From positions 1-34,069 of the forward strand of contig JAGWMX010000022.1 in NCBI GenBank assembly GCA_028871525.1: a DNA stretch of 34,069 bases. The letters run 5' to 3'. This stretch comes from Gammaproteobacteria bacterium (lineage in GTDB: Bacteria > Pseudomonadota > Gammaproteobacteria > Nevskiales > Nevskiaceae). Under the pieces are notes generated by a model. The model worked only from the letters and a program-made list of their open reading frames with translations, was not told the DNA's origin and did no database searches. The translations under genes and the position numbers were made by a program. Positions 13,753 to 20,340 of this stretch are shown in pieces. How positions within the stretch are numbered: the stretch's first letter is position 1; the number at the start of each line of letters is the position of its first letter.

Positions 13753-14553
13753 CTATTTCCTCTGGCTCGCACTCTGGCGACCGCCACGCCCGCCGCTGGC
13801 CTGCGACTGTTTTGACCTTGAATTGCTTGCGGACCGCGACGCACCGCCGGATCGCGGGGATTCCGCGGACGTGCCGCCGCTGGTGTCGGCGGACGTGCCG
13901 CCGCTGGCGCCGCTCACCGCGCCGACGGCGCCGCTGGCCTGGCTTTGCGCGCTACCCGCCACACTTCCGGCTGCACCGGCAGCGGCACTCGTCCCGGCCG
14001 GGACCGCGGCGGTCACGCCGCCGGGATCCGCGCCCGCACCGGCCGCGCCGCCGCCGCTTGCGCCGACCGATGCGTTGGCTCCACCGGGGCCGCTGGCGCC
14101 CAGCGTGGCGCTGGTGCCGACGTCACCGTCGGCCGCACCCGACAGCGGGCCTGCCTGAGAGTTGAGCGCGCCGCCAGCCGCACCCGTCGCCGCGCCACCC
14201 GCCGTTCCGGCGGCGCCGGTCAATGCGCCCTGGGCCCGTCCCGCGGCTCCCGCCGCAGCGCCGCCCATCGGCGGCAGACCCGTGCTCATGCCGGCCTGAC
14301 CGCCGGCAAAACCGGTGACGCCCGCAGCCGGCGGAAGCGGCATCGGACCGATGCCGCCGCCGAAGCGGCCCACGCCATTGGCCGTCCCCATGCCGGCGGC
14401 ACCGAAGCCGCCGATTCCGCCGCCGACGCCGTTCATCACGCCGCCCGCGGCACCGCCGCCCAGCAGCTGACCGGCCAACACCGGCATCGTCATCGCGGCT
14501 GCGCCGCATAACAAGCCGGCCTGTACCGTTCTGCGAAGAATGATTTTGTTCAT
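13753..14553 (-). CDS. exported Gly/Ala/Ser-rich low-complexity protein, putative ECF target
   Basis: 266 residues from the ATG at 14553, chosen because AAGGAG lies upstream and MNKIILRRTVQAGLLCGAA begins a normal signal peptide ending near MPVLAG. I do not recognise a family. The mature protein is almost wholly low complexity: a Gly-rich part (about residues 25-75, many GG and GF/GV steps), a short Pro-containing patch (PMPLPPAAG), a long Gly/Ala part, then Gly/Ser/Thr repeats (SGGTSADTSGGTSAES). It ends in a basic Ser/Arg/Lys tail (SRSKQSQASGGRGGRQSASQRK). There are no cysteines after the signal peptide. It may form a disordered or fibrous surface or matrix material. The gene is downstream of the ECF sigma and anti-sigma genes on the same strand and has its own copy of the sigma gene's upstream motif. 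A frame artefact is unlikely given the start site and signal peptide. Confidence 0.75.
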   Translation of the reverse strand: MNKIILRRTVQAGLLCGAAAMTMPVLAGQLLGGGAAGGVMNGVGGGIGGFGAAGMGTANGVGRFGGGIGPMPLPPAAGVTGFAGGQAGMSTGLPPMGGAAAGAAGRAQGALTGAAGTAGGAATGAAGGALNSQAGPLSGAADGDVGTSATLGASGPGGANASVGASGGGAAGAGADPGGVTAAVPAGTSAAAGAAGSVAGSAQSQASGAVGAVSGASGGTSADTSGGTSAESPRSGGASRSASNSRSKQSQASGGRGGRQSASQRK

Positions 14554-14625
14554 CGTCGTACTCCTTATCGCGTGTCTTGGGTGTCGTCCGGCAGGCGCAC
14601 TCATCACGCCTGCCGTTTACATCCT

Positions 14626-14654
14626 GACAACGTATGGAGCAGACCTTTTCTTCC
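14626..14654 (-). promoter_or_regulatory. putative ECF-sigma promoter of the Gly/Ala-rich gene
   Basis: Minus strand: GGAAGAAA (14647-14654), then CGTTGTC (14626-14632), 14 bases apart (GGAAG to CGTT spacer 17). The same two boxes precede the sigma gene at 15968-15995. ECF sigma factors commonly use a GGAAC-like -35 and a CGTC-like -10. The start codon is about 70 bases downstream of the box. Confidence 0.6.
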
Positions 14655-14665
14655 AAGCCGCTGCG

Positions 14666-14698
14666 AAAATGTTTATTTTATATTTTATTATCATTAGC
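14666..14698. promoter_or_regulatory. AT-rich patch upstream of the ECF promoter
   Basis: A run of about 33 bases made almost only of A and T lies just upstream of the GGAAG box, between the anti-sigma stop codon and the promoter, in an otherwise strongly GC-rich region. It could act as an UP element for the RNA polymerase alpha subunits, as a binding site for a nucleoid protein, or contain an alternative sigma70 -10 (GATAAT, TATAAA are present). Confidence 0.5.
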
Positions 14699-15436
14699 TT
14701 ACTTGATTCTCCAGCCGTGGGCCCTGGCCGTGCGCTCGCCGGCTGCGTCCAGCGGCGGTCCGGCGATCATGTCCCTGACGACGCCGCGCACCGAATCGGG
14801 CATCGCGCTGCCCGCCGGTCGGTAGGGGGCGTTGGCACCGGATTGCGGCGTCACTCCGGCCAGCACCGCGATGCGCCAGTTGCCGCCCTCATGGCAGGCC
14901 ACCCCCGCCATCGGTGCAGCGCCGGCAGTCTCAAAGCTGCGGCAGTAATGCCCGCTCCTGTCGCGAAAGCTGATGCCGATCCTGGTCTGTGCATCCTGGC
15001 TCTGTCGGGCGGCGAGCTGATCGGTCAGCGCAGCGGCCAGCGGCCCGCGGGCGATCAGATTGCCGCCCCCGGAAACGACGTTGGCGCCGCGCAGACCCGT
15101 CATCAATACACCGATCGTCACGCCGCAGGCCAGCGCAGCGGCGACCGGCAGGCCCGCCCTCAATAGCACGCGTCGCGTGGCGAACCCGCGCCAGGCTTGC
15201 CCGATCCTCCAGCGCAGCGATGGCCGCCGCGTCGCGACCGCCAGCAAGGCGTCCGGCACCGGCGCCCTGAGGATTGCCTCGAATGCATCGCGGACGCCGT
15301 TGCGCAGGGCCCGCTGCTGCTCCACGTAGGCCCACAGATCGGGCCGGGTCGCGATTTCGGCTTCGACCCGGCGTGCTTCCTCTGCGGGCAGTTCGCCGTC
15401 GACGTAGGCCAGCAAAGCCTCGGTGGAAACCGTCAT
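14699..15436 (-). CDS. membrane-bound anti-sigma factor
   Basis: 245 residues. The N-terminal cytoplasmic part, TEALLAYVDGELPAEEARRVEAEIATRPDL, has the anti-sigma-domain pattern (LLAYVDGEL, then a helix ending in RP-hydrophobic) but lacks the HxxxCxxC zinc motif of ZAS proteins. One transmembrane helix is at about residues 91-112 (LLRAGLPVAAALACGVTIGVLM). The C-terminal part (about 113-245) should be periplasmic and contains two cysteines (HYCRSF and VACHEGGNW) that could form a disulfide. Its start codon overlaps the sigma stop codon (ATGA), so the pair is translationally coupled, as expected for sigma/anti-sigma partners. Release of sigma might need proteolysis or a redox or envelope signal in the periplasmic domain; this is inference. 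Confidence 0.85.
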   Translation of the reverse strand: MTVSTEALLAYVDGELPAEEARRVEAEIATRPDLWAYVEQQRALRNGVRDAFEAILRAPVPDALLAVATRRPSLRWRIGQAWRGFATRRVLLRAGLPVAAALACGVTIGVLMTGLRGANVVSGGGNLIARGPLAAALTDQLAARQSQDAQTRIGISFRDRSGHYCRSFETAGAAPMAGVACHEGGNWRIAVLAGVTPQSGANAPYRPAGSAMPDSVRGVVRDMIAGPPLDAAGERTARAHGWRIK

Positions 15437-15951
15437 AGCCCGGTCTCCGGCATTTCCGCGTCCGCTCCGAACACCCGCGCCCGCAATGCCTCCCGCGCCC
15501 GGGCCAGCCGGCTCGTCACCGTGCCGATCGGCACCCGCAGAATCTGCGCCGCCTCGCGGTAGGGCACCCCCTCGATCAGCACCAGGGCGACGACCGCGCG
15601 CTGCTCCTCCGGCAATTCACCCAGCGCGCGGCAGGTGTCGGCGAGCGTCAGCTTTGCGTCCACCGCGCCGGCGCCGTCGAACACGTGCCTGGCTTCCAGT
15701 GCCTCGACCCCGGTCGTCGGCCGCGCACGGCTGGACCTGACGGTGTCGATCCACAGATTCTGCGCAATGCGATACATCCAGCTGTCCAGTCGTGTGCCCC
15801 GCTGCCACCGATGAAGATTCTTCAAGGCGCGCTCGACCGTATCCTGCACCAGATCGTCGGCGTCGCTCAGGTTTCCCGTCAGCGACATCGCAAACCGGCG
15901 CAGCCGCGGCAGCAGCGCGACGATTTGATCACGGATCTCCTGTTCGGCCAT
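15433..15951 (-). CDS. ECF-type RNA polymerase sigma factor
   Basis: 172 residues. Region 2 covers about residues 8-75 (LLPRLRRFAMSLTGNLSDADDLVQDTVERAL, then WMYRIAQNLWIDTVRS) and region 4 about 110-160 (LPEEQRAVVALVLIEGVPYREAAQILRVPIGTVTSRLARAREALR). There are no regions 1.1 or 3, so it is a group 4 (ECF) factor. It is the first gene of a sigma/anti-sigma pair divergent from the protease gene at 16198. Its own start lies 16 bases downstream of a CGTTGTC box, matching the box before the Gly/Ala-rich gene and suggesting positive autoregulation. The exact ECF subgroup cannot be assigned by eye. Confidence 0.94.
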   Translation of the reverse strand: MAEQEIRDQIVALLPRLRRFAMSLTGNLSDADDLVQDTVERALKNLHRWQRGTRLDSWMYRIAQNLWIDTVRSSRARPTTGVEALEARHVFDGAGAVDAKLTLADTCRALGELPEEQRAVVALVLIEGVPYREAAQILRVPIGTVTSRLARAREALRARVFGADAEMPETGL

Positions 15952-15967
15952 GTGGGGCTCGTGCTAC

Positions 15968-15995
15968 GACAACGCTTGTGCCCGCGCTTTCTTCC
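15968..15995 (-). promoter_or_regulatory. putative ECF-sigma promoter of the sigma/anti-sigma operon
   Basis: Minus strand: GGAAGAAA (15988-15995), 13 bases, CGTTGTC (15968-15974); GGAAG-to-CGTT spacer 16. This shares 15 box positions with the element upstream of the Gly/Ala-rich gene while the spacer sequences differ, as expected for promoter elements rather than a duplicated segment. The leader would be only about 10 bases. Confidence 0.6.
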
Positions 15996-16197: not shown

Positions 16198-17541
16198 ATG
16201 ATACCCAGACGGACGGGCGCGAAACTGCATTTGCGAGCGATGCTCGCAGCGGCTTTGTCGATCGCGGCTCCAGCCGTTCCCGCGCAGTTGTTGCCCCCCG
16301 GCGGCGGCTTGCCGTCTCTGCCGGGCGGCCCGATCGTACCCACCCTGCCGCCCGCCACACCTGCGGCACCCGACCTCGGCGGCACGCTGAACCGCACGAT
16401 GCATGCGGTGAACAACGCCTTGCGCGACCCGGTCGGCCGCCCGCCCGACGATGCGCACGCGCTGGCCCGCGACCTCAACGGCGCGCGCGTCGTCCGCGGC
16501 GAAGCCCTGGCCATGGCGCCGACAGAAGATTCCCTGGCGGTGGCCCGCCGGTTGGGATTCACGCTGGTGCGACAGGACCGCCTGCAGCCGCTTGGCCTGT
16601 CGGTGGCCGTGCTGCGGGTGCCGGACGGGATGCGGGTCAGCGAGGCACTGGCGGTGTTGCGCAAAGCCGATCCCGCCGGAACCTACGATTACAACCACAT
16701 TTACGATCCCGGCGGCGGCCTCGATGCCGGTGCACCGGGAACGCGCACGCCGCAAGGCGCGGCCGGAGTCACGCGTATCGGCATGATCGATGCCGGCATC
16801 GATCGCCAGCACCCCGCGCTGGCGCAGGTTCGGATCGAGACGAAGGACTTTGCCGCCGATAGGCCGGGGCCGGCGACGGCCCACGGCACCGCCGTAGCCT
16901 CGCTGCTGGTCGGACAGGACGACGATTTTCACGGCGCATTGCGCGGCGCGGCGCTGTACGCGGCCGATGTCTACGGCGGCCAGGCTTCCGGCGGCAACGC
17001 GGAAGATATCGCCCGCGCGCTCGCCTGGCTGGCCGCCGCCGAAATCCCGGTCACCAATATCAGCCTGAGCGGGCCGCCCAATGCACTGCTGGCGGCGGCG
17101 ACGGCGGCCTTTATCGCACGCGGCCATGTGCTGGTCGCGGCAGTGGGCAACGACGGTCCGGCCGGATCGGTGCGGTATCCCGCCGCCTATCCCGGCGTGG
17201 CCGGCGCCACTTCCGTCGACGCGCAGCTGCGGATACAGATCGACGCCAATCGCGGCCCCGATGTGGCCTTCGCCGCCCGCGGCGTTGACGTCCGGGCCGC
17301 CACCTCCGGAGGCGGCTATCATGACGTCACGGGGACCTCCTTTGCGGCACCGATCGTCGCCGCGCGTTTTGCCGTGCTGATGACCGGCGCCGATTCCGCC
17401 GCCGCGGTCCGTGCCTGGGCGGCGCTGAAGCACGCCGCCGTCGATCTGGGCGTTTCCGGCCGCGATCCGATCTTCGGTTACGGATACCTGGACTCGCCCA
17501 CCGCGGCTGCAGCGGTGGATCAACCCGGCTCGACGAAGTAA
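16198..17541 (+). CDS. exported subtilisin-like serine protease (S8 family)
   Basis: 447 residues from the ATG at 16198; an upstream in-frame start would add an unlikely Arg/Asp-rich stretch before the signal peptide. Residues 1-36 are a signal peptide (RRTGAKLHLRAMLAAALSIAAPAVPA). A Pro/Gly-rich linker (LLPPGGGLPSLPGGPIVPT) and a prodomain-like region to about 185 follow. The subtilase domain has all catalytic residues: Asp198 (GMIDAGID), His229 (AHGTAVASLL), oxyanion Asn318 (AVGNDGP) and Ser381 (GTSFAAPIVAA). It ends with GYGYLDSPTAA and has no autotransporter or C-terminal sorting domain, so it is likely periplasmic or secreted. It is divergent from the ECF sigma operon; the Gly/Ala-rich protein or the anti-sigma periplasmic domain are conceivable substrates, without direct evidence. 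Confidence 0.9.
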   Translation: MIPRRTGAKLHLRAMLAAALSIAAPAVPAQLLPPGGGLPSLPGGPIVPTLPPATPAAPDLGGTLNRTMHAVNNALRDPVGRPPDDAHALARDLNGARVVRGEALAMAPTEDSLAVARRLGFTLVRQDRLQPLGLSVAVLRVPDGMRVSEALAVLRKADPAGTYDYNHIYDPGGGLDAGAPGTRTPQGAAGVTRIGMIDAGIDRQHPALAQVRIETKDFAADRPGPATAHGTAVASLLVGQDDDFHGALRGAALYAADVYGGQASGGNAEDIARALAWLAAAEIPVTNISLSGPPNALLAAATAAFIARGHVLVAAVGNDGPAGSVRYPAAYPGVAGATSVDAQLRIQIDANRGPDVAFAARGVDVRAATSGGGYHDVTGTSFAAPIVAARFAVLMTGADSAAAVRAWAALKHAAVDLGVSGRDPIFGYGYLDSPTAAAAVDQPGSTK

Positions 17542-17715: not shown

Positions 17716-17742
17716 ACCGTGATCGAACCACCGCGCGACCCG

Positions 17743-18258
17743 ATGCTGCCGGCACGCCCGTCCCGGCGTTGCGGTCGCAGCGTGCGTGGCGCCATCAATA
17801 CGCTGGTTCTGCTGCTGGCCGTCGCGGTGGTCACACCGGCGCTGGCCGCGCCGCCGCAGCGGGGACCGGCGCAGGATCGCCGCGGACCGCCGGCCGGCGG
17901 TCCGCCGACGCCCGGAGGTCCCTTCGAGCAGCAGTCGCCGTTGCCGCAGCCGTCGGTGCCGGGACAGCCTGGTCCCAGGCTGTCGATACCGCCGGCACCG
18001 GAAGCGGGTGGCCAGCCGCCGCGCGGCGGATTCTACGGGCTGCAGCCGGGCCCGCCCCCTTCCCGGCAGCCGACGGCACAGGCCGCGCCGCGTCCGCAGC
18101 CGCAACGCCCGTCGATCAATCCCGGCGAAGCGGCGCGGCGTGCGCAGGCGATCAATGGCGGCGGCCGGGTGCTGACGGTAACGCGCAGCGGCGACGGTTA
18201 TCGTGTCAAACTGATCAAACGCGGCGAGGTCCGCGTCGTGTTCGTACCCGGAGGCTGA
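17743..18258 (+). CDS. exported proline-rich protein with a PepSY-like C-terminus
   Basis: 171 residues from the ATG at 17743 (a GTG at 17719 would add eight residues before the signal sequence). The signal peptide is at about residues 12-36 (VRGAINTLVLLLAVAVVTPALA). Next comes a roughly 80-residue linker rich in Pro, Gly and Gln, with many PPxGGP and QPxxP steps, probably unstructured. The C-terminal 45 residues (GEAARRAQAINGGGRVLTVTRSGDGYRVKLIKRGEVRVVFVPGG) match the PepSY half-domain pattern of helix plus strands. Such proteins are often encoded directly upstream of an OmpR/PhoQ-type two-component pair, as here, seven bases before the regulator. It may modulate the sensor's periplasmic domain; that is inference. 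Confidence 0.7.
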   Translation: MLPARPSRRCGRSVRGAINTLVLLLAVAVVTPALAAPPQRGPAQDRRGPPAGGPPTPGGPFEQQSPLPQPSVPGQPGPRLSIPPAPEAGGQPPRGGFYGLQPGPPPSRQPTAQAAPRPQPQRPSINPGEAARRAQAINGGGRVLTVTRSGDGYRVKLIKRGEVRVVFVPGG

Positions 18259-18265
18259 CCCGGCG

Positions 18266-18943
18266 ATGCGCGCCCTGATCATCGAAGACGACCCGCAGTT
18301 ACGCGGGCAGATCAACCGCTTCCTCGCCGACGACGGCTACGCGGTGGACGCCGCCGCCGACGGCGAGCAGGGCCTGTACATGGCGGTCGAGTTTCCGATC
18401 GACATCGCCATCGTCGACCTCGGCCTGCCGAAGACGCCGGGTATCGACATCATCCGTGCCGCGCGCAAAGCCGGCTGCAAATACCCCATCCTGATTCTGA
18501 CCGCGCGCGACGGCTGGCAAAGCAAGGTCGAAGGCCTCGAAGCCGGCGCCGACGATTATCTGGTCAAACCATTTCACAAGCAGGAACTGCTGGCGCGCGC
18601 GCGTGCGCTGCTGCGTCGCAGCGGCGGCTGGAGCTCCTCGCAACTGACGTCCGGACCGCTGTCGATCGATCCCGCTGCCAAGACCGCCGCGCTCGACGGT
18701 CGCCCGGTGGAACTCACCGCCTACGAATTCCGGGTGCTCGAATTCCTGCTGCTGCATGCCGGTGAAGTGGTCTCCAAGACCGCCCTGACCGAACACCTGT
18801 ACAACGAGAACGAAGAGCGCGACAGCAACGTCATCGAGGTGTTCATCCGCCGCCTGCGCGCCAAACTCGATCCGGACGGACAGCTCAACCCCATCATCAC
18901 ACTGCGCGGCGCCGGTTACCGTTGGAATTTGCCGCGAAACTGA
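18266..18943 (+). CDS. OmpR/PhoP-family response regulator
   Basis: 225 residues. The receiver domain (1-120) has acidic residues EDD at 7-9, phosphoacceptor Asp51 (IVDLGLPKTPG), Thr in LILTARDG and Lys in DDYLVKPF. The winged-helix DNA-binding domain (about 128-222) has LTAYEFRVLEFLLLHAGEVVSKTALTEHLY and SNVIEVFIRRLRAKLDP, ending GAGYRWNLPRN. This is the PhoP/QseB/PmrA architecture, and because its partner kinase is PhoQ-like, PhoP is the best guess. The gene follows the PepSY-like gene by seven bases, with GGAGG overlapping that gene's end. Its TGA stop is at the start of a MITE-derived repeat fragment, so the last codons may have been reshaped by the insertion. Confidence 0.93.
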   Translation: MRALIIEDDPQLRGQINRFLADDGYAVDAAADGEQGLYMAVEFPIDIAIVDLGLPKTPGIDIIRAARKAGCKYPILILTARDGWQSKVEGLEAGADDYLVKPFHKQELLARARALLRRSGGWSSSQLTSGPLSIDPAAKTAALDGRPVELTAYEFRVLEFLLLHAGEVVSKTALTEHLYNENEERDSNVIEVFIRRLRAKLDPDGQLNPIITLRGAGYRWNLPRN

Positions 18944-18984
18944 CCGCCGCCGCGGTGCGCCGCCATGGCGTTAACAGGCCCTAG
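18941..18984. repeat. truncated copy of the MITE end between regulator and kinase genes
   Basis: 44 bases closely matching the reverse complement of the left end of the element at 9503-9787 (9503-9546), with about five differences, and sharing CATGGCGTTAACA and CCCTAG with its right end. Similarity seems to reach a few bases into the response-regulator gene (CGAAA before TGACCGCC). Only one end is present, so this is a solo fragment or a remnant after excision. Confidence 0.75.
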
Positions 18985-19017
18985 TCAGCGGTACCAGCCA
19001 GACGTCACACTCGGGCG

Positions 19018-20340
19018 ATGAATTCCTTTCGCGTGCGGCTGCTGCTGGTCGGCTCACTGGTGCTGGCGGTATTCCTGCTGATCTCCGCCGCGGGCATCGA
19101 TCAAGCTTTCGTGCAGAGCGCGCTGCAGTCGCAGCGGGACCGCATGCAGGGGCTGGTCTATGCGCTGATCGGCGCCGCCGAGCCGGGTCCGGCCGACAAC
19201 CTGACCATTAATCCCGACGCCCTGCCCGACCCCCGGTTCAAGCACGTGCAATCCGGCCTGGAGGCGGTCATCTTCGACCAGCGCGGCGACGCCATCTGGC
19301 GTTCGCCGAATCTCGCCGGTGCCTTGCCGCCGATCCAGGCGCCGCCAGTCGGCAGCGCACTGCTGCGTGAGCAGGGCGGCAGTTTTATTTATTCGTTCGG
19401 CATCCGCTGGTTGGGCGAATCCAATCATCCGCGTCGTTTCACCCTGGCGCTGATCGAGAACCGCAGCGCCTACAACGCGCAGATCCAAGCTTTCCGCCGA
19501 ACGCTGTGGACGGATCTCGTTGCCTCCGGTGCGGCGCTGATTCTGGTGCAATTCTTTTTGTTGCGCTGGGGGGTGGCACCGCTGCGCCGGCTGGCCGGCG
19601 AGATCCGCGAGATCGAGGCCGGCGAGCGCGCCAACATAACCAGCCACTATCCGAGCGAGCTGCAGCCGGTGACCGAGAATCTGAACGCGATGATCCGCAG
19701 CGAGCGCCAGCAGTTGCAGCGCTACCGCAACGCCCTGGGCGACCTCGCGCACAGCCTGAAGACGCCGCTGGCGGTGCTACGCGGCGTGGCCGAGGATCCG
19801 GCATTGCCGGTGCCGTGGCGCCAGCAGCTCAACGATCCGCTCGATCGCATGCAGGACATCGCCGAGCACCAGCTGCGCCGCGCCGCAACGGCGGGGCGCC
19901 GCATTCTCGCCGAACCGATGGCGCTGGCGCCGTTGGCCAACAAGGTGATCGCGGCGCTGGCCAAGGTCCATCGTGACAAGAATCTGCGCTTTGCCAACGA
20001 AGTGCCGCCGAAACTGCGCGCGCGCGCCGACGCCGGCGATCTATATGAAATGCTCGGCAATCTGCTCGACAACGCCGCCAAATGGGCTCGCGGCGAAGTG
20101 CGGATCTGCGCCCAGGCCGGCGCCGGCGGGATCACCATCGAGATCGAGGATGATGGGCCGGGCTTCCCGCCGCAGCCCGAAGTGCTGCTGGAACGCGGCG
20201 TTCGCGCCGACAGCCGCGTACCCGGCCAAGGCATCGGCCTGGCGACGGTCGCTGATATCGTGCGCCTGAACGACGGTCGTATCGAATTGGGCGCCAGCAC
20301 CCTCGGCGGCGCCCGCGTGCGGGTGCTGCTGCCGCGTTGA
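19018..20340 (+). CDS. PhoQ-type sensor histidine kinase
   Basis: 440 residues. TM1 is at about residues 7-28 (RLLLVGSLVLAVFLLISAAG), the periplasmic sensor domain at about 29-163, TM2 at about 166-185 (VASGAALILVQFFLLRWG), then a HAMP-like linker. The H-box is DLAHSLKTPLAVLRG with His245, nearly the same as in E. coli PhoQ. N-box: EMLGNLLDNAAKWA; G1: EIEDDGPGFP; then LLERGVRADSRVPGQGIGLA and a C-terminus LGGARVRVLLPR, again like PhoQ. It probably phosphorylates the upstream regulator in response to cations, low pH or antimicrobial peptides. The periplasmic domain lacks an obvious run of acidic residues like PhoQ's acidic patch, so the ligand may differ. The 74-base gap to the regulator carries the MITE fragment. 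Confidence 0.9.
   Translation: MNSFRVRLLLVGSLVLAVFLLISAAGIDQAFVQSALQSQRDRMQGLVYALIGAAEPGPADNLTINPDALPDPRFKHVQSGLEAVIFDQRGDAIWRSPNLAGALPPIQAPPVGSALLREQGGSFIYSFGIRWLGESNHPRRFTLALIENRSAYNAQIQAFRRTLWTDLVASGAALILVQFFLLRWGVAPLRRLAGEIREIEAGERANITSHYPSELQPVTENLNAMIRSERQQLQRYRNALGDLAHSLKTPLAVLRGVAEDPALPVPWRQQLNDPLDRMQDIAEHQLRRAATAGRRILAEPMALAPLANKVIAALAKVHRDKNLRFANEVPPKLRARADAGDLYEMLGNLLDNAAKWARGEVRICAQAGAGGITIEIEDDGPGFPPQPEVLLERGVRADSRVPGQGIGLATVADIVRLNDGRIELGASTLGGARVRVLLPR

Follow-up and report, generated by a model that had tools for sequence, protein, structure and literature searches.

A candidate two-box promoter motif with a GGAAG variant of the −35 element at a subtilase-linked, ECF26-like sigma factor locus

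The closest described relatives of the system considered here are the ECF26 sigma factors, with consensus −35 GGAATA (PMC6180224) and, in sulfite-responsive members, −10 CGTC (PMC6527743). In Sinorhizobium, the ECF26 factor RpoE6 is encoded divergently from the serine protease gene SMa0142 and activates neighbouring genes; the SMa0142 promoter, mapped by 5′ ends, reads GGAATAGACCGACGACTCAGCCGTTCTGACACAa (start in lower case), with the elements GGAATAG...CGTTCT (PMC6180224). The sulfite-response factors RpoE1 and RpoE4 of Sinorhizobium and SigE of Starkeya belong to the same group and use the same type of promoter, with −35 GGAAT and −10 CGTC (PMC3511301, PMC6527743). For C. glutamicum, from a distant Gram-positive group, modelling put Met170 of SigH and Arg185 of SigE in contact with bases −31 and −30 (PMC10012870), and mutating this position altered promoter use (PMC10012870; PMC11588781).

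We analysed a stretch of 34,069 nt (the window) from an uncultured genome; judged by sequence comparison, its ECF locus appears to be a system of known kind, matching ECF26 with RpoE6 as the closest counterpart, and a −35 specificity variant of it. The sigma gene (15433..15951, minus strand) encodes a 172-aa protein with regions 2 and 4 only (Sigma70_r2 and Sigma70_r4_2, PF04542 and PF08281, over cut-off), within the size range of ECF factors (~170-200 aa). The RpoE6 locus of pSymA was recovered in our search for relatives; its sigma factor and that of the window share 47% identity over 85% of the length, the ECF26 likeness of the latter being judged by pairwise similarity to RpoE6 only. As in the RpoE6-EcfR6 system of S. 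meliloti, the sigma gene is followed by a gene for a membrane anti-sigma factor, a subtilase-type protease is encoded divergently, and GGAA.A-N14-CGTT promoters stand before neighbouring genes (PMC6180224). The window's protease (16198..17541, plus strand) is an S8 subtilase with an N-terminal extension (PF00082, E 4.6e-25; motifs GMIDAGID, HGTAVAS and GTSFAAP in the translation), and the divergent arrangement is seen in most subtilase-linked relatives. In contrast to the RpoE1, RpoE4 and SigE systems, no sulfite-oxidising genes were seen adjoining the window's system, and the secreted target differs. Past the subtilase, a small Pro/Gly-rich, signal-peptide-like ORF (17719-18258, plus strand) lies just before a two-component pair (18266-20340, plus strand) whose best NCBIfam scores are to PhoP and PhoQ, both under cut-off.

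The anti-sigma gene (14699..15436, minus strand; 245 aa) overlaps the end of the sigma gene. Its product has the layout of ECF26 anti-sigma factors, an N-terminal anti-sigma domain (zf-HC2 weakly over cut-off), a likely membrane helix and a periplasmic C-terminal domain, with which fold match and predicted structure agree. The predicted structure places the membrane helix at ~96-113 and gives a beta-rich C-terminal domain; confidence is low at ~71-110. The best five fold matches of the predicted N-terminal helices were all anti-sigma domains (RslA, RsiW, MucA, ChrR and DdvA), the best being 3hug_F (Z 7.2, rmsd 3.1, 55 aligned); for the periplasmic domain there was no clear match to a solved structure among those listed, a result that need not imply a new fold. 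Across 35 aligned subtilase-linked relatives, C165, R166, C181 and W187 do not vary, and the cysteine pair is shared with the S. meliloti system. C165 and C181 lie on predicted adjoining strands (164-170 and 176-183) and would face each other if these form a hairpin; thus, a periplasmic disulfide is possible and the pair may act as a sensor.

The preliminary description of this DNA had noted two copies of a pair of boxes, GGAAGAAA and CGTTGTC, separated by dissimilar spacers of 13 and 14 nt, and had read them as ECF promoters. Both copies are on the minus strand exactly where it had placed them: before the sigma/anti-sigma operon at 15988..15995 (−35) and 15968..15974 (−10), with 13 nt from the octamer, and before a gene for a Gly/Ala-rich protein at 14647..14654 (−35) and 14626..14632 (−10), with 14 nt. 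Since both spacers and flanks differ between the sites, recent duplication of the upstream region was rejected. Written in the ECF convention, the core reads GGAAGAA-N14/15-CGTTGT, equivalent to GGAAG-N16/17-CGTT; compared with the ECF26 consensus, GGAATA with CGTT or CGTC, the −10 element and the spacing fit, and the fifth base of the −35 element is G for T. We consider it highly probable that the boxes make up two promoters, each with a −35 and a −10 element, and that the sigma factor reading them is the product of 15433-15951, an ECF26 member or very close relative.

The sigma ATG, at 15951, comes directly after the first pair of boxes. Given the spacing in the mapped SMa0142 promoter of S. 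meliloti (PMC6180224), the sigma transcript would start with the A at 15962, and the transcript of the Gly/Ala-rich gene near 14620, with a leader of ~66 nt. The sigma mRNA leader (15952-15962) would have ~11 nt and carries no Shine-Dalgarno sequence, and the distances from promoter to sigma gene are likewise short in two related loci (L010 and L011), so near-leaderless translation of the sigma factor is possible. Upstream of the second −35 element is an A+T-rich stretch (14655..14714, minus strand; 70% A+T versus 33% locally, in a window of 67% G+C), possibly an UP-element. The window, L010 and L011 plainly show richness in A+T upstream of the target promoter; as a general trait of target promoters, an UP-element was rejected (17 paired loci, p 0.09).

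Comparison with relatives had been named beforehand as a test on which the promoter reading could fail. Relatives of the sigma factor were taken from the genome_contigs collection, whole genomes and plasmids, and upstream of their genes we saw GGAATAA or GGAAGAA, 14 or 15 bases, and CGTT, in most cases at a distance of 40-60 bases from the start codon. With the window excluded, the strict motif GGA(A/T/C)(T/G)A-N14/15-CGT(T/A) preceded the sigma gene in 33 of the 36 loci with a neighbouring subtilase gene and the subtilase gene in 11 of them; reversed controls gave 0 in both positions. A matrix trained without the window found 98 sites above threshold in the loci versus 15 in Markov sequence. 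It scored the window's sites at 25.3 and 22.7 bits, the only ones above 13 within 3.5 kb on each side of the sigma gene; with an earlier matrix, the window's sigma site included, the maximum in 20 Markov windows was 20.7. The boxes are thus kept before orthologous sigma genes, which supports both the promoter reading and the proposal that they form a candidate recognition motif of this sigma factor. Before the window's own subtilase the matrix scans detected no copy of the motif, which is present there in other species and, as a promoter of the protease gene, in the RpoE6 system. As side observations, GGATGAA occurs as a further −35 variant together with GTL(N/T)SRLV helices (L128, L140, L143-L145, L148, L162 and L167), and L128 and L040 have divergent, nearly overlapping copies of the motif between their sigma and subtilase genes.

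The G at the fifth −35 base (GGAAG versus GGAAT) is shared by the window and its nearest relatives, while their other kin have GGAATA. In alignments of the sigma4 helix, factors of GGAAT type have GT.M-SRL and those of GGA.G type GT.(T/S/N)-SRL; in the window, the variable residue is Thr146 (codon 15514..15516, minus strand), which lies in the recognition helix (GTVTSRL) and is expected to point towards base 5 (−31), and RpoE6, with −35 GGAAT, has Met at this position. A cultured relative of the G type is Sphingomonas rhizophila (L040). We counted loci in a search that allowed any nucleotide at base 5, many more distant loci giving no site: with Met at 146 the base was T in 56 of 57 loci and G in one; with Thr, Ser or Asn it was G in 17 of 19, T in one and A in one (a doubtful site); with Arg it was C in all three. 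In a tree from which these columns had been left out, we count no more than three changes of the residue, one of them on well-supported branches. With so few switches (about three), the independence of the covariation is weak, and we rejected the claim of independent, significant covariation. In C. glutamicum the corresponding sigma4 residue has been linked to the fifth −35 base by mutation, Met170 going with GGAAT and Arg185 with GGAAC (PMC10012870); a Thr/Ser/Asn-G pairing is not described in the parts of that paper available to us, and, as a caveat to any rule, SigH with its Met also reads the GGAAGA promoter of rshA (PMC10012870). From the alignments and the analogy it is likely that Thr146 reads the fifth base of the GGAAG-variant −35; a Thr-G rule is plausible, rather than a demonstrated code. 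One could go further and regard residue 146 as a natural specificity switch (Arg-C, Met-T, Thr/Ser/Asn-G), with the window's clade as a third, undescribed ECF26 promoter class orthogonal to the GGAAT type; on this our judgement is evenly balanced.

These data also bear on the question of whether the main reader of the two promoters might be another ECF sigma factor, e.g. an EcfG/ECF15- or RpoE-like one. The −35 elements of ECF type are alike, and the RpoE2 and RpoE6 regulons of Sinorhizobium overlap (PMC6180224); however, the motif accompanies this particular sigma gene across species, its fifth base tracks residue 146 of the product, and promoters of ECF15 type are mostly GGAAC in the mapped Sinorhizobium set (PMC6180224), which makes another main reader unlikely.

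Reading by the locus's own sigma factor would place under its control the gene directly after the anti-sigma gene, coding for a putatively secreted Gly/Ala-rich low-complexity protein (13753..14553, minus strand; 266 aa), with its ATG 72 bases past the boxes. One could suspect that this ORF is an artefact of high G+C content and that the second promoter serves something else: the sequence is of low complexity, has no match in Pfam or NCBIfam, and long ORFs lie opposite on the other strand. Nevertheless, AAGGAG precedes the ATG at 14553, the N terminus is signal-peptide-like, and in L010, L011 and L012 a motif site likewise lies between the anti-sigma gene and a gene for a secreted Gly-rich protein. 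These proteins align with that of the window beyond composition (mature part, z 5.1 to 7.4 versus block shuffles, window against others), and we regard an artefact as very unlikely. Elsewhere the arrangement varies: L024 has two Gly-rich genes with the motif; in L040 and L128 there is one past the subtilase gene; L013, which counts as one of the nearest relatives, carries the motif before its sigma gene and lacks a Gly-rich gene preceded by it; in other loci, secreted proteins of other kinds, often repetitive, follow the extra site. The Gly/Ala-rich gene had been proposed as the first target of this sigma factor; this would hold for the present genome and not for the kind of system, as related ECF26 regulons have been mapped in Sinorhizobium (PMC6180224).

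Within the window, GGAAGAAA-N10-16-CGTTGTC has 2 matches versus 0 in 100 dinucleotide shuffles. The genome scan called for in the preliminary description (2,712,634 bases in 146 contigs, ~92% complete) gave no full match, GGAAGAAA-N13/14-CGTTGTC, besides these two in the 2.7 Mb, with ~0.003 expected per genome. The looser GGAA...CGTTGTC had 9 matches versus 10 for the reversed control, the full −35 octamer being present in two only. GGAAKAA-N12-17-CGTT matched 7 times; the sole further match with the right spacing (C137:3693), also the best of the extra sites and the one that was read in its context, is inside a transporter-like ORF, and a search of the whole genome for further targets through GGAAKAA and GGATGAA variants gave scattered sites, none convincing. 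Chance recurrence of boxes lacking promoter function, for which one could cite that there are two sites only and that single GGAA...CGTTGTC matches elsewhere occur at the control rate, is practically negligible in view of the expected number, the empty shuffles and the recurrence of the boxes at matching positions in other species; this orthologous conservation refutes it in practice. The regulon looks very small. Unlike the window's system, that of RpoE6 has no motif upstream of rpoE6 itself, and overexpression raises ~40 genes. In five other loci (L042, L044, L045, L135 and L136) close divergent or tandem copies of the motif were seen at +1246 to +2824 from the sigma start, preceding repetitive and other secreted proteins; this suggests a larger local regulon in those species.

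At E ≤ 1e-28 the sigma factor was matched in 11 of the 58 genomes of the window's family, with no match in the one other genome of its genus. The closest matches found in the genome_contigs search were in MAGs labelled Alphaproteobacteria. The assembly contains no 16S; the absence of a GcrA match in the window's genome and a match to DnaX tau domain V suggest that the host belongs to Gammaproteobacteria. With the closest matches in alphaproteobacterial MAGs, horizontal transfer of the system is likely, though not proven.

In the mechanism that we propose, the membrane anti-sigma factor would hold the sigma factor until a signal is sensed by the periplasmic domain, perhaps involving its invariant cysteine pair, and the sigma factor is released. 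One promoter would then drive the sigma/anti-sigma operon (autoregulation), and the other the gene for the secreted Gly/Ala-rich protein just downstream; the subtilase may also take part in the system.

Beyond the preliminary description, the analysis adds the covariation of the GGAAG variant with residue 146, the invariant periplasmic cysteines of the anti-sigma factor and the divergent subtilase. For an uncultured genome, the locus offers a complete testable unit of sigma factor, anti-sigma factor, promoter and putative target. It also links, over more than 70 natural promoters, the identity of one −35 base to that of a single sigma residue, which could help to predict regulons from sequence and to design orthogonal ECF switches. 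Finally, the conserved secreted Gly-rich protein and the invariant cysteines of the anti-sigma factor provide leads to what subtilase-linked ECF26 systems sense and do.
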